From the NCBI RefSeq assembly GCF_900114585.1, contig NZ_FOTL01000018.1, forward strand, positions 1-44,647: a DNA stretch of 44,647 nt, read 5' to 3'. This DNA is from Methanobrevibacter olleyae. Its GTDB lineage: Archaea; Methanobacteriota; Methanobacteria; Methanobacteriales; Methanobacteriaceae. The notes below the pieces were generated by a model. The model was given only the letters and a program-made list of their open reading frames with translations. It did not search any database and was not told the DNA's origin. The translations under genes were made by a program, and so were the position numbers. How positions within the stretch are numbered: the stretch's first letter is position 1; each line of letters opens with the position of its first letter. This document shows positions 15,211 to 37,708 of the stretch, piece by piece.

Positions 15211-15353
15211 TTTATTTTATTTATTTAAATCATTTTTCATTTTAGATTTTTAATGCTGCTTTTAGAGAAGTGTCCATTTATAAGCTAATTAAAATTATTA
15301 AAGAATTGATTAATTAAATGAATGTTTTTTAAATAAATATTCAAATAATTAAT

Positions 15354-15537
15354 TGAAAAGCATAAAATTTATCTTGTGAAAAATATAAAATAAAATTGGT
15401 GAAAAGTATAAAATAAATACGATGAAAAGTATAAAATAAATACGATGAAAAGTATAAAATAAAATAGGTGAAAAGTATAAAATAAATATGATGAAAAGTA
15501 TAAAATAAAACAGGTGAAAAATATAAAAAAGTGATTA
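15354..15537. repeat. 23-bp tandem repeat array, eight copies (iteron-like)
   Basis: Copies of TGAAAAGTATAAAATAAATA plus three bases begin at 15354, 15377, 15400, 15423, 15446, 15469, 15492 and 15515, an exact 23-bp period. The unit ends alternate between forms such as CGA and AGG. A degenerate ninth copy is the start of the ATPase gene itself (ATGAAAAAATATTTG). Every unit contains GTATAAAATA, which resembles an archaeal TATA box with purine-rich BRE. There are no spacers, so this is not CRISPR. The array begins within 144 bases of the preceding gene's stop. Confidence 0.9.
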
Positions 15538-15539
15538 TG

Positions 15540-16826
15540 ATGAAAAAATATTTGCCAAGATATACTGACCAGGAACTTAAAGAATCTCTAGAATATATGG
15601 GTGCTGTACTGATAACTGGTCCGAAGTGGTGCGGTAAGACTACAACAGCCAAACAACAATGTAGAAGTCTAAAAGAATTACAACATCCTATTCATGGAAA
15701 ATCTTACTTAAAACTTGCAGACACTAATCCGATAGAACTCTTAAAAGGTGAAAAACCAATCTTAATTGATGAATGGCAAATGGCACCAGAACTATGGGAT
15801 ACTGTAAGATATTTGGTAGATGAATCAGATGAAGATGGACTATATGTCTTAACTGGCTCAACAATAGTAGATGAGAGTAAAATCATGCACTCAGGAGCAG
15901 GTAGGATAAAAAGAATTCTAATGCGTCCAATGAGCTTATATGAAAGTGGAGAATCCACAGGGGCAATATCATTAATTGACTTATTTGACAATGAGGATTT
16001 AAACATTGATGGTATAACATCAAATTTAACAATAACTGATTTAATATTTGCTACTTGCAGAGGTGGCTGGCCAGAATCATTAAGCAAAAAAACTAAAAAA
16101 CAGCAATTGGCAATTGTATCTGATTATATAGACATAATATGCAATAGCGATATCTCAGAACTTGATGGTGTTAAACGCAGCCCTCAAAGAGTAAAGGCTA
16201 TCTTAAAATCTTACGCTAGAAATATATCAACATTAGCAACTAAAAAAACACTCATGAAAGATATAAAGGCAGAATACAACGATATTTCCCTACCAACATA
16301 TAATTCATATATCAATGCTCTTGAAAGATTATATCTTATTCAAAACATTCCTGCATGGTCACCTAACATCAGATCTGCAAATACCATTAGGAAATCCTAC
16401 AAAAAGGAATTCATTGATCCATCAATAGCAGTGGCAAGTCTTAATCTAACACCTGAAAAACTATTAAAAGACTTTGAAACATTTGGATTTATATTTGAAA
16501 ACCTATGTATACGTGACTTATTAGTTTACTCAAGTTCAGTTAATGGGGAAGTATTATATTATAATGATGATAGTGGCCTTGAAGCAGATTGCATCATTTA
16601 TCTAAGTGATGGAAGATATGCATTAATAGAATTTAAATTAGGTAAGAGAGAAATTGATAAAGGAGCAGAAAATTTACTTAAATTAAAAGAATTAATTAAA
16701 AAAAGTGTAAAAAACAAAAAAATTGATTTAGAAGAACCAAGTTTTCTAGCTGTAATTACAGGTGGTGAAATGGCATACACTAGAGCTGATGGAGTGAAAG
16801 TCATCCCAATAGGATGCTTGCGATAA
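15540..16826 (+). CDS. AAA_14 / DUF4143 family ATPase
   Basis: A 428-residue ATPase of the AAA_14-DUF4143 type, abundant in methanogens and gut bacteria and of unknown function. Walker A is GPKWCGKTTT (about residues 28-37), Walker B PILIDEWQ, and sensor LTGSTI. The DUF4143 half carries the PD-(D/E)xK-like nuclease signature GLEADCIIYL with YALIEFKLGK (E-x-K). Related proteins are often linked to mobile or defence loci, but no partner is certain here. GTGATT before tandem ATGs favours the second ATG at 15540. The gene abuts an array of eight 23-bp repeats with TATA-like cores, suggesting unusual control or a DNA target for the protein. Confidence 0.85.
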   Translation: MKKYLPRYTDQELKESLEYMGAVLITGPKWCGKTTTAKQQCRSLKELQHPIHGKSYLKLADTNPIELLKGEKPILIDEWQMAPELWDTVRYLVDESDEDGLYVLTGSTIVDESKIMHSGAGRIKRILMRPMSLYESGESTGAISLIDLFDNEDLNIDGITSNLTITDLIFATCRGGWPESLSKKTKKQQLAIVSDYIDIICNSDISELDGVKRSPQRVKAILKSYARNISTLATKKTLMKDIKAEYNDISLPTYNSYINALERLYLIQNIPAWSPNIRSANTIRKSYKKEFIDPSIAVASLNLTPEKLLKDFETFGFIFENLCIRDLLVYSSSVNGEVLYYNDDSGLEADCIIYLSDGRYALIEFKLGKREIDKGAENLLKLKELIKKSVKNKKIDLEEPSFLAVITGGEMAYTRADGVKVIPIGCLR

Positions 16827-16990
16827 ATGTTTTTTGGATTAGAATGCAGTATGCCCAATTATTAATAGTAATCTTCTCATTGTTTTTGATATTATCAATT
16901 GAATTTTGTGATTGCAACTATTTATTATAGTTTCATGTTCAACTAATTTTTAGAAGTAAATTACAATTTTTTAAGTAATAAATGTAAAAA

Positions 16991-17001
16991 TATTTATATA
17001 A
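16991..17001 (+). promoter_or_regulatory. TATA box of the wHTH/DUF3467 operon
   Basis: AAAAATATTTATATAATC centres on a TATA-like box about 55-65 bases before the ATG at 17056. This would place transcription start near 17025 and give a short leader, as usual for archaea. Confidence 0.5.
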
Positions 17002-17055
17002 TCAATACTAAATTATTAATTACCCTTTAGTATGATAAGTATGTGAGATGGGCAA

Positions 17056-17454
17056 ATGTTATTAAATGAATTATTTGGAGAAAATGCAAGGATAAAAATA
17101 TTGGAAGAGCTTTTAACATATGTTGATTCATTTTTAACTGCTGAAGAAATATCTAGGATGGCTGATGTTTCATCAAAAACAGTTTATATTCATATGAATC
17201 AATTAGAAGAAATTGGCATTTTAGAAGTTGAAAAAAAAGGTGCTAAAAGGTTTAAATTAAATTCTAATGATGAAAGAGTTTTGGCATTAGGATTAATAGA
17301 AGCTAATGAATTTTTAAGAAGATCAAATAAATATGAGTTATCCTTCGAGAGTAGTGAACTTAATCCTGTAGCTATTAAACAATATTCAAATTATGATGAA
17401 ATTGAAGCATTGTCTGATGAAGTTCCTACTTTAGAGTTTTCAATTACATTTTAA
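17056..17454 (+). CDS. Winged-helix transcriptional regulator
   Basis: A 132-residue protein with an N-terminal winged helix: LFGENARIKILEELL, FLTAEEISRMADVSSKTVYI recognition helix, and HMNQLEEIGILEVEKKGAKR wing. The pattern resembles archaeal ArsR/MarR-like repressors. The C-terminal third is acidic and ends PTLEFSITF. The ATG follows GTGAGATGGGCAA. It heads a tight three-gene operon: 12 bases to a DUF3467-like gene and 23 more to a second small HTH-like gene. The arrangement suggests a self-contained regulatory unit of unknown target. Confidence 0.7.
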   Translation: MLLNELFGENARIKILEELLTYVDSFLTAEEISRMADVSSKTVYIHMNQLEEIGILEVEKKGAKRFKLNSNDERVLALGLIEANEFLRRSNKYELSFESSELNPVAIKQYSNYDEIEALSDEVPTLEFSITF

Positions 17455-17466
17455 GGGGATGTTATT

Positions 17467-17733
17467 ATGAATGAAGAAAAAAAAGAATTGAATTTGTTTA
17501 TTCCAGAAGATTTGGCAGAATATTATATTACTGGAGGAGCAATCGCTTCATCTCCCTTTGATATAAGATTAATTTTATTTAAAGATGAAATTGAAAAAAA
17601 CAATGATATTTTAAATGGTCATAATGTAGGGATGATAAGAACTGCAAAAACAGAAATCATCATATCTCCTGTTGTTGCAAAGCAATTAAGGGATTTGCTT
17701 GATAAAGAATTACAGAAATATGAGGATGATTAA
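17467..17733 (+). CDS. DUF3467-like small protein
   Basis: An 88-residue protein resembling DUF3467: YITGGAIASSPFDIRLILFK, then MIRTAKTEIIISPVVAKQLR with DLLDKELQKYEDD. These are the typical SPxDFxLxF and SPxxAKxLxxLL elements of that family, whose function is unknown. It sits between two HTH-type genes with intergenic gaps of 12 and 23 bases and has its own ribosome site (GGGGATGTTATT before the ATG). It may bind or modulate the neighbouring regulators; that is inferred only from position. Confidence 0.65.
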   Translation: MNEEKKELNLFIPEDLAEYYITGGAIASSPFDIRLILFKDEIEKNNDILNGHNVGMIRTAKTEIIISPVVAKQLRDLLDKELQKYEDD

Positions 17734-17756
17734 TTTTTGATTATTTTGGAGGCATT

Positions 17757-18080
17757 ATGATAAATATTGATGATGATCCAAAAGAGATAATCAAGGAATT
17801 ATGTGAAACTGAAAAAAACATTTTATTTATTTTAGGTAAAATGAGAATTTCAGTTAAAAAGAATTTCAATGAGCATTCTCTAAAAAAGAGATTAAGCAAT
17901 GATGATTTAAAGGAATATAATAAAGCATTTTCTAATTTGTGTACTAGTGGAATAATAGTTATGTATAGACCTGGAAATTTTGGAGTTTCTAAGCAAGGTC
18001 GAAGAATAACGGATGAAATTGTTGAGCAAAAAAGACAGAAGATATATTCTGATTTGAGGATTTTAATACTTCAAGTTTAA
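17757..18080 (+). CDS. Small HTH-like protein
   Basis: A 107-residue protein, third gene of the wHTH/DUF3467 operon, preceded by GGAGGCATT. Segments KRLSNDDLKEYNKAFSNLCT, SGIIVMYRPGNFGVSKQGRR and ITDEIVEQKRQKIYSDLRIL look like a winged helix in which LxxxGII...F.vs.kG forms helix 3 and wing. Basic residues in the C-terminal half fit DNA binding. I do not recognise a named family. Confidence 0.6.
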   Translation: MINIDDDPKEIIKELCETEKNILFILGKMRISVKKNFNEHSLKKRLSNDDLKEYNKAFSNLCTSGIIVMYRPGNFGVSKQGRRITDEIVEQKRQKIYSDLRILILQV

Positions 18081-18275
18081 TTTTGTTTAAGATATTAAAA
18101 TTATTGAGGTTTTTTATGGTTGTTGTATAGGTAAAGCAAAAAATCTTCTTATGAAAAAATTTTATAAACTTAATCTGCATATAGCACTTCAGAAATATTA
18201 TAGAATTTACGAATTTCATTTCTGTGATTTTCTAGAATCAATAATTTTAAATATTTCTTTTAACAAAATATAATT

Positions 18276-18405
18276 TAGGTCTTTGATATATGAATTTAAT
18301 TTATCCTTCATTATTATTATTATTAATCATATATGTATAAGTATTTTATTTAAATCTATCAAAGACCTACTTTTTATATAGCTAAAAATACAGTTGTATT
18401 TTTAG
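18276..18405. repeat. Nested inverted repeats in the wHTH-queC intergenic region
   Basis: TAGGTCTTTGATA (18276-18288) and TATCAAAGACCTA (18357-18369) are perfect 13-bp inverted copies. Inside them ATATATGA (18286-18293) and TCATATAT (18327-18334) are also perfect inverted copies. Directly after the outer arm, CTAAAAATACA (18382-18392) and TGTATTTTTAG (18395-18405) form an 11-bp hairpin. The surrounding 650 bases hold no credible gene. Possible readings are a structured RNA, a small transposon derivative or a compound terminator. Confidence 0.65.
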
Positions 18406-18734
18406 AAATAAAACTATTTTTTAGGTGAATGAATAAAAATAGGGAATATTTAAAGGAATTTACCTATTAAAAAATTCAGACTCCTAATGATTTTTTAATC
18501 GTTATTTTATTCTTTTTTGATTATTTTAGTTAATAACTGTTGAATATTAGTTAAGTTTATATAATTTTTAAAACATATTTTTTTTTAATGAGAAGACTTA
18601 ATTATAACTTTTTTTTAAGTATTTTTCTTTTTAATTTTTTTAAAATTATTTATTTTTATTAATTTTTTATATAAAAATTAAGTATTTTATCAATTTATCA
18701 ATTTATCAATTTACTTAGATTATGGTGTAATTAT

Positions 18735-36394: not shown

Positions 36395-37708
36395 TTATTT
36401 TGGGTTATGGACTCCTCCTAATGGGACTTGTCCTGTTTCTTTTTTATTTTGAATAATATGTTCTTGTCTTACTAGTACTCTCATATCAGACTCTAGGTCT
36501 TCATATAATAAAACACCAGAACCAATTGTAGACCTTACTCCAATTTTAACTCCAGGACTTAAACTTGAGTTAATACCAGTTTTTACAGAATCTCCTACAA
36601 TTGCGCCTAATTTACGCCTTCCAGTATCAGTTCTTTTATTTTTAATAGTGGTTTTTACAGTTTTATTATCGAAACGTAAATTAGCGATATTAGTTCCAGC
36701 TGCAATATTACAGTTAGAACCTAAGATTGAATCTCCAACATAACTTAAATGACTTACATTCGTATTTTCCATAATAATTGAGTTTTTAATTTCTACAGCA
36801 TTACCAATGTGAACATTATCTCCAAAGTAGGAATTTCCTCTAATATAAGAATTAGGCCCAATATCACAGTTTTTACCAATGTATACTGGCCCTTCAATAT
36901 AAACTCCTGAACGAATGAGGCTGCCTTCGTCTAAAAACACTTCTCCATGGATGGTAGCTCCTTCTTCAACAGTTCCTATAATCTCTCCTTCAATATGATT
37001 AAGTAATTCCTCATTAATTTCAATTAATTCCCATGGCTTTCCAATATCCATCCATTCCTTAGTGGTTTTATGTCCTTTAACTACTTTTCCATCTGCAATC
37101 TGAAGGGATAATGAATCTGTAATTTCATATTCTCCTCTTGGTGAAATTTCAGTTTTTTCAATTTTATCGAAAATATCTTTATTAAAAATATAAATACCTG
37201 TATTGATTAAATTACTTGGAGCTTCTTCTTTTTTAGGCTTTTCAACAATATTAATAATTTTATCTCCATCTAATTCAACAACACCAAATGCACTTGGATC
37301 TTCTACTTCAGTTAATACTATCAATGTGTCTGGTTTGGATTTTTCATAATCTTCAATGATTTCACTAAGTATTTCAACATCTAATATGATATCTCCATTA
37401 AGAGTAATTAGACTGTCTTTGATGAAGTCTTTTCCATAACCAATTGCATCTGCAGTTCCTTCTAATTTACTTTGGGTGGCATAACTGATATTTACTCCAA
37501 GCTGTGAACCATCTTTAAAGTAATCTTTAACTATTTCTTCTTTATATCCCACGACAAGAAGAATATCTTCAATGCCACAATCACGTAATGCCTCTATATT
37601 GTATTGTATAATAGGTTTTCCAGCAACAGGTAACATTGTTTTAGGTTTTGTAAGAGTTAGAGGTCTCATTCTTGTTCCTTCACCTGCACTTAAAATTATA
37701 GCTTTCAC
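36395..37708 (-). CDS. glmU: Bifunctional GlmU-type sugar-1-phosphate nucleotidylyl-/acetyltransferase
   Basis: A 437-residue fusion enzyme. The N-terminal nucleotidylyltransferase has LSAGEGTRMRPLTLTKPKTM, the catalytic TLNGDIIL and VEKPKKEEA. The C-terminal left-handed beta-helix (from about 240) carries NLRFDNKTVKTTIKNKRTDT, typical of archaeal glucosamine-1-phosphate acetyltransferase. It probably acetylates GlcN-1-P and then makes UDP-GlcNAc for pseudomurein and glycans. It starts with GTG (37706-37708) after GGGAGGAATAAG. glmM lies further upstream on the same strand (38559-39905), giving consecutive pathway steps. The order of genes in transcription is apgM, glmM, then, past the rubredoxin gene, glmU. 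Confidence 0.88.
   Translation of the reverse strand: MKAIILSAGEGTRMRPLTLTKPKTMLPVAGKPIIQYNIEALRDCGIEDILLVVGYKEEIVKDYFKDGSQLGVNISYATQSKLEGTADAIGYGKDFIKDSLITLNGDIILDVEILSEIIEDYEKSKPDTLIVLTEVEDPSAFGVVELDGDKIINIVEKPKKEEAPSNLINTGIYIFNKDIFDKIEKTEISPRGEYEITDSLSLQIADGKVVKGHKTTKEWMDIGKPWELIEINEELLNHIEGEIIGTVEEGATIHGEVFLDEGSLIRSGVYIEGPVYIGKNCDIGPNSYIRGNSYFGDNVHIGNAVEIKNSIIMENTNVSHLSYVGDSILGSNCNIAAGTNIANLRFDNKTVKTTIKNKRTDTGRRKLGAIVGDSVKTGINSSLSPGVKIGVRSTIGSGVLLYEDLESDMRVLVRQEHIIQNKKETGQVPLGGVHNPK

Follow-up and report, generated by a model that had tools for sequence, protein, structure and literature searches.

A private 23-bp tandem array as the candidate operator of a DUF4143 ATPase-nuclease gene in Methanobrevibacter olleyae

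Iteron plasmids encode winged-helix Rep proteins and carry direct repeats of ~20-22 bp. I-TevI and the controller (C) proteins of restriction systems are cases of a nuclease, or the partner of one, regulating its own promoter via a DNA-binding domain, and in type III toxin-antitoxin systems (ToxIN, TenpIN, and CptIN), a repeat array with a family-typical unit length lies upstream of a nuclease gene. We describe a tandem array of 23-bp units beside a DUF4143 gene of Methanobrevibacter olleyae, found on a 44,647-nt stretch of DNA that was analyzed as a whole and is here called the window.

Like an iteron system, the locus has direct repeats of fixed period beside their own gene, a winged-helix reader (here proposed), and a repeat sequence private to each element. 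It differs in being a chromosomal cassette with a nuclease domain, a period that follows the protein subfamily, and no replication functions. There is no Rep domain in the window protein, for which Pfam gives only AAA_14 and DUF4143, and the locus is a chromosomal island. The comparison with iterons drawn in a first-pass annotation of the letters holds as an analogy, given the direct repeats, their constant period, and their private sequence. Nothing points to the replication or partition control that it had in mind. The likeness to I-TevI and C proteins is a nuclease gene with sites at its own promoter, for which we propose autocontrol. Co-variation and promoter phasing suggest that, as expected of an autorepressed gene, the DNA-binding domain specifies these sites; in contrast to those systems, the array is long, its sequence is private to the locus, and the protein has an ATPase domain. 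As in type III toxin-antitoxin loci, the array is directly 5′ of a nuclease gene and has a family-specific unit length, but here it lies upstream of the promoter, is unstructured, and appears to be recognized at the DNA level by a winged helix.

By profile, the window protein is a member of PDC-S01, in which an ATPase is fused to a PD-(D/E)XK domain. PDC-S01 is reported to be the fourth most common defence across prokaryotes, with 9,986 archaeal and 29,494 bacterial instances and cross-domain transfer; validation is pending for most PDCs (NAR 2026, PMC12988326). A rumen survey reported it as the most frequent single locus (PMC13356809). The window protein, which has the ATPase and PD-(D/E)XK residues, is a candidate phage-defence ATPase-nuclease of the PADLOC PDC-S01 class, and the array is an extra, undescribed component: neither paper yielded a hit for tandem repeats. 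Neither a published mention of the array nor literature pairing DUF4143 with tandem repeats was found in a search that had bioRxiv and most subscription journals outside its scope. Despite the reported abundance of PDC-S01, we also found nothing on its binding target or restraint. The array is a specific candidate DNA ligand, for which two putative reader residues can be named.

The array and its gene

The window makes up a single contig (G000:C18) in an archaeal genome of 2.12 Mb. As the first-pass annotation had read it, the array consists of eight units at exact 23-bp spacing (starts at 15354, 15377, 15400, 15423, 15446, 15469, 15492, and 15515) and abuts a DUF4143 gene, with a gap of 9 bp to the gene start (Table 1). 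TRF recovered it with a period of 23, 7.6 copies, and higher-order periods of 46 and 69 bp. Its score, 89.5, is the top upstream tandem-repeat score of all window ORFs, the next being 87 and 62.5. When one mismatch was allowed, the unit was found elsewhere in the genome once, with one mismatch, which makes the site all but exclusive to its gene. AT-rich tandem repeats detected by TRF are numerous in the window and common in the genome; one example is the three-copy 45-bp array 5' of a nucleotidyltransferase/hexapeptide gene (36398-37669, minus strand).

Only five of the eight units contain an exact copy of the TATA-like GTATAAAATA, initially ascribed to each of them. The copy in unit 7 may serve as a TATA box and GTGAT (15531-15535) as a Shine-Dalgarno sequence; reading the letters in this way, array and core promoter probably overlap across the last two units and the leader (15492..15536). 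The first codons of the gene, which had been taken for a ninth degenerate copy, agree by eye with 11 of the 23 positions of the unit, a resemblance to which we gave no weight. Tiny MKSIK-like upstream frames, readable by eye in most window units, were rejected because the start codon is missing in the units of other loci.

Table 1. Features of the array, the DUF4143 gene, and the surrounding inserted stretch (window positions)
Feature	Position	Strand	Remark
Tandem array, eight 23-bp units	15354..15528	+	Common-register unit AATATGGTGAAAAGTATAAAATA; proposed self-addressed operator array
Units 7 and 8 with leader	15492..15536	+	Direct sequence reading
DUF4143 protein, 429 aa (AAA_14, winged helix, PD-(D/E)XK)	15537..16826	+	PADLOC PDC-S01 profile
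Walker A, residues 28-35	15618..15641	+	GPKWCGKT, the subfamily signature
Walker B, residues 76-80	15762-15776	+	LIDEW
Winged-helix recognition helix, residues 252-264	16290..16328	+	Structure model
Codons 252-253	16290-16295	+	Here Leu-Pro with A16, T17, A18; basis is co-variation
Asp345, N-terminal part of nuclease domain	16569..16571	+	Co-varies with unit column 9
PD-(D/E)XK motif	16581..16637	+	E349-x-D351 ... E365-x-K367
Inserted stretch, 3.25 kb	15251..18501	.	Cassette, HTH gene, DUF3467 gene, and 107-aa ORF
HTH gene (ArsR/Fur-like)	17056-17454		In inserted stretch
DUF3467 gene	17467-17733		In inserted stretch
107-aa ORF	17757-18080		In inserted stretch

The identity of the protein as a DUF4143 ATPase with a PD-(D/E)XK-like motif was borne out. 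Pfam matches to DUF4143 (PF13635, 3.8e-32) and AAA_14 (PF13173, 2.1e-16) are both over the cut-off, and the PADLOC profile for PDC-S01 (PDLC04790) covers residues 2-392 (E 1.8e-63). The nuclease residues D351, E365, and K367 are invariant in 55 homologues, as are G28, P29, K30, C32-T35, and D78/E79. The structure model is confident (mean pLDDT 93) and places helix 252-264 in a winged helix. Its best structural matches are the archaeal STAND-like ATPases PABY2304 (2qen, E 1.8e-7) and SSO1545 (2fna, E 5.7e-7). The order of helices in the model would fit an AAA core followed by a winged helix, as in such ATPases, but the TM-score over the whole protein is low, only ~0.43-0.51, and the matched chains are shorter (350 aa) and cover part of the model. 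A weak PDB sequence match, Win31, was judged to be due to chance. The closest named homologues are from Methanobrevibacter MAGs and are 91-92% identical. The same genome contains five DUF4143 genes, three of which belong to the GPKWCGKT subfamily.

Array period across DUF4143 subfamilies

The array upstream of the window gene is one case of a general rule. Each of the three GPKWCGKT paralogues of the genome has a 23-bp array reaching up to its start, and each has a different unit sequence. In a scan of named genomes, we collected 80 relatives, including members of the Bacteroidales, Clostridia, Spirochaetes, Verrucomicrobia, and Methanomassiliicoccaceae, most of which have a 23-bp array within ~150 bp upstream. 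Comparing the leaders of DUF4143 genes for iterated units of 20-25 bp, as the first-pass annotation had proposed, gave a best period of 23, 46, or 69 in 81 of 87 bacterial and archaeal relatives when 300-bp upstream regions were used. Over the same length, a strong period-23 score was found for 4 of 391 neighboring control ORFs, and no shuffled region (0/435) reached a period-23 score of 15. Five control ORFs with period 23 could be explained: one is another DUF4143 gene, and for the other four, which lie on the opposite strand, the upstream region extends into the array of an adjacent DUF4143 gene. Homologues lacking the repeat, which would have spoken against a link between gene and array, were not a feature of the close relatives; yet in 27 of the 90 held-out relatives no array exceeded the threshold, and thus the array is either not indispensable or able to decay.

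We added ~140 further DUF4143 loci for a comparison of subfamilies, in which the 33-, 34-, and 40-bp subfamilies were compared for period only. With class labels that are crude, being taken from the Walker A motif alone, and counting loci with an array over threshold, the period is 23 in 112 of 116 loci of the GPKWCGK class, 34-36 in 14 of 16 of the GLRGVGK class, 39-42 in 26 of 30 of the GxRR[CS]GK class, and 32-33 in 17 of 24 of the GxR[RQ]xGK and GxRQSGK classes. Period and protein subfamily share 1.26 bits of mutual information, and the maximum of 2000 permutations was 0.185. The rule is valid inside a single genome, that of a Methanomassiliicoccaceae member with 48 DUF4143 matches.

That genome (G070; L107 and L205-L244) carries its 48 matches in 1.6 Mb, with at least three period classes and unit sequences that are mostly different. 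Identical copies within it, considered as a map of mobility, proved to be overlapping contig ends. Genes for ATPase_2 proteins (PF01637) of ~400 aa in Methanobacteriaceae (L336, L340, L347, L349, L353, and L355) often have upstream arrays of 45-48 bp, which in this small sample are possibly a further subfamily of the same phenomenon. No arrays were seen at DUF234-type genes of Methanobacteriaceae, also a small sample.

Unit anatomy and co-variation with the winged helix

We aligned the 23-bp units circularly, leaving protein information out. The conserved frame consists of AAA in columns 1-3, CAAAA in columns 9-13, A in column 20, and T or C in column 22, and the variable columns are clearest at 14-18. 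By position, units agree at 83% within an array and 50% between loci; for columns 14-18, the values are 81% and 32%. Palindromy is absent from units of the 23-bp class and frequent in the 34-bp class. Distance between units tracks distance between proteins (Mantel rho 0.48, 0/500 permutations). As for which part of the protein is involved, a domain-wide Mantel test did not clearly single out any domain, whereas a site-resolved test did give a clear result.

Among protein columns compared with the 23 unit columns by mutual information, residue 253 with column 18 was far ahead (z 11.1). In the model, the first turn of the winged-helix helix 252-264 includes residue 253. All testable pairs were then scored for association between residue charge (Lys/Arg or Asp/Glu) and base (G or C). 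The pairs 253x17, 253x18, and 252x16 held ranks 1-3 of 1332 in the discovery set and again ranks 1-3 of 1694 in a held-out set of 63 new arrays, whose loci encode new proteins that are nonetheless not phylogenetically independent of the discovery set. With both sets combined, Lys/Arg253 occurs with G18 in 26 of 30 cases, Asp/Glu253 with C17 in 31 of 36, and Pro253 with A18 in 44 of 49; of the 26 cases with Lys/Arg252, 20 have G16 and none has C. Pairing of Lys/Arg with G and of Asp/Glu with C is usual where a recognition helix sits in the major groove. The paralogues of the genome itself match the code (Glu252-C16, Leu252-A16, and Arg252-G16).

To control for phylogeny, we used a tree built without the co-varying columns. 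Independent pairs for 253Pro/A18 numbered 6.3 in the same and 0.1 in the opposite direction, and those for Asp/Glu/Gln at 252 with C16 numbered 7.8 versus 0.6. Taken one by one, the phylogeny-controlled tests are weak (median p 0.02-0.7), with the direction as predicted, and the strength of the code lies in its ranking and replication rather than in these single tests. Residue 345 and unit column 9 co-vary as well (Arg/Lys with C in 93 of 104, Asp with G in the cluster of the window protein), with weaker replication, and the residue is perhaps a second DNA contact, on the other strand. A same-genome test for selection toward distinct addresses gave a weak excess in whole-unit distance and none in the address columns. 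This co-variation between recognition helix and unit strongly supports the proposal, one of several in the first-pass annotation, that the units are binding sites for the ATPase: the protein would bind its own units via the winged helix, with residues 252 and 253 addressing columns 16 and 17-18, respectively.

Copies per array range from three to eighteen across loci. The window array has 7.6, arrays of proteins ~89-93% identical have 3.2-5.7, and even a 97% identical pair differs (8.3 versus 5.3), so the number is not fixed. Since copy number varies between close relatives, the suggested tuning of expression by changes in copy number is possible.

Promoter phasing, cassette boundaries, and competing explanations

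With promoters assigned by consensus, the array in bacteria holds a fixed position relative to the core promoter. In 11 of 12 bacterial loci with Firmicutes-type promoters, the -35 TTGA begins 18-20 bp after the last CAAAA. For Bacteroidetes-type promoters, TAnnTTTG begins 39-41 bp after it in ~25 of 36 loci; in four loci it begins at 18-19, placing the last unit inside the core promoter. These fixed offsets put the array upstream of, or overlapping, the promoter, and in most bacteria the last unit is just upstream of the -35. Methanobrevibacter arrays end about ten bases before the start codon. Activators also bind just upstream of the -35, and the position of the array probably favors repression while being compatible with activation.

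The compared sequences indicate that array and gene travel as a compact cassette. The closest relatives are 83-87% identical in DNA over the array and gene only, and their flanks differ. Five bacterial pairs are likewise similar over array and gene only, with similarity stopping 0-12 bp past the stop codon; in one compared pair it stops ~36 bp past, and some near-identical pairs also share flanks. In the window, the cassette is part of a 3.25-kb stretch that is missing from all 12 congeneric genomes with the conserved DUF2099-QueC gene pair. Distribution is patchy (19 of 119 genomes in a Bacteroidales sample, and 7 of 300 across the phylum to which a Lachnospiraceae member belongs), and the cassette is rare in viral contigs (7 loci), phage records (4), and plasmids (7). 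Direct repeats of 45-213 bp flank it at a minority of loci (L053, L058, L082, L091, L103, and L109), immediately outside the array and just past the stop; these resemble dispersed intergenic repeats and may bear on cassette movement. At L003, a second 23-bp array made of that gene's own unit (L003:2240-2402) lies just past the stop of a paralogous gene and is possibly the remnant of a tandem cassette; L075 is similar.

We consider it likely that the array is the private operator of its own gene, through which the DUF4143 protein controls, and probably represses, its own expression. The protein would bind the 23-bp units of its own array via the winged helix, residue 252 reading base 16 and residue 253 bases 17-18 in each unit, and copies of the protein would line up, presumably cooperatively, at the spacing fixed for the subfamily. 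Since the array borders on the core promoter, or overlaps it in some lineages, binding would most likely repress the gene and hold the putative ATPase-nuclease at a low level, with activation as the alternative. Array and gene would move as one cassette, so that each copy would bring its own lock and key. A possible but doubtful variant keeps this reading of the units and makes autoregulation secondary to storing or assembling the ATPase-nuclease on DNA, either inactive or activated. Simple repression usually requires fewer sites than the three to eighteen present, each subfamily keeps to its own period, the nuclease domain appears to make a second contact (residue 345 with column 9), and the Walker and nuclease residues are invariant, all of which would suit such a platform; it would not, however, require fixed phasing at its own promoter, and the genome has no additional arrays of the window unit. 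In the same tentative spirit, the DUF4143/PDC-S01 proteins of bacteria and archaea might be a mobile self-addressed class in which assembly on a private, period-locked array beside the gene's own promoter goes beyond expression control and sets when the nuclease is armed or which cassettes can share a cell.

That the array is instead an end cut for movement of the cassette, like the repeated sites of transposases, seems unlikely to us. Array and gene are the moving unit, similarity ends at the array and mostly 0-12 bp from the stop, the window copy sits in an insertion missing from relatives, and direct repeats flank the cassette at several loci. A second end is lacking, however: there is no conserved terminal pair, own units lie downstream of the gene at just 2 of 108 loci, the loci compared show no consistent target duplication, and promoter phasing would be left unexplained. 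We give very little weight to a mechanism like that of type III toxin-antitoxin systems, in which the array would be transcribed and its RNA would bind the protein. Although a short array directly 5′ of a nuclease gene with a family-specific unit length recalls such systems, a recognizable bacterial promoter between array and gene leaves the array outside that transcript, no RNA structure (fold z -0.43) or Rfam match was found for it, and a code that pairs Lys/Arg with G and Asp/Glu with C is the one a winged helix uses in the major groove of DNA. Tandem TATA boxes or a TBP sink, raised in the first-pass annotation, would account for the TATA-like letters of the window units and for an array close to the start codon, and are just as improbable. 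Bacteria, which lack TBP, have the same 23-bp arrays with the core promoter downstream, and neither their units nor those of other archaea are TATA-like, while period and position are unchanged. Neutral expansion of AT-rich repeats, many of which lie in the window, has a negligible chance of explaining an exact 23-bp period that recurs in two domains of life, is missing at control genes, and co-varies with the protein.

The subfamily periods (23, 32-33, 34-36, and 39-42 bp) suggest that spacing reports the architecture of a protein-DNA assembly. The two-residue code, with its many natural variants, is a readable example of co-evolution between a winged-helix protein and its site, and could supply mutually independent DNA-binding parts. 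The 48-copy Methanomassiliicoccaceae genome offers a natural set for independence of addresses, and L106 one for tolerance of spacing. The upstream array at L106 alternates between 20- and 23-bp spacing (a 43-bp period), apparently through small deletions in alternate units.
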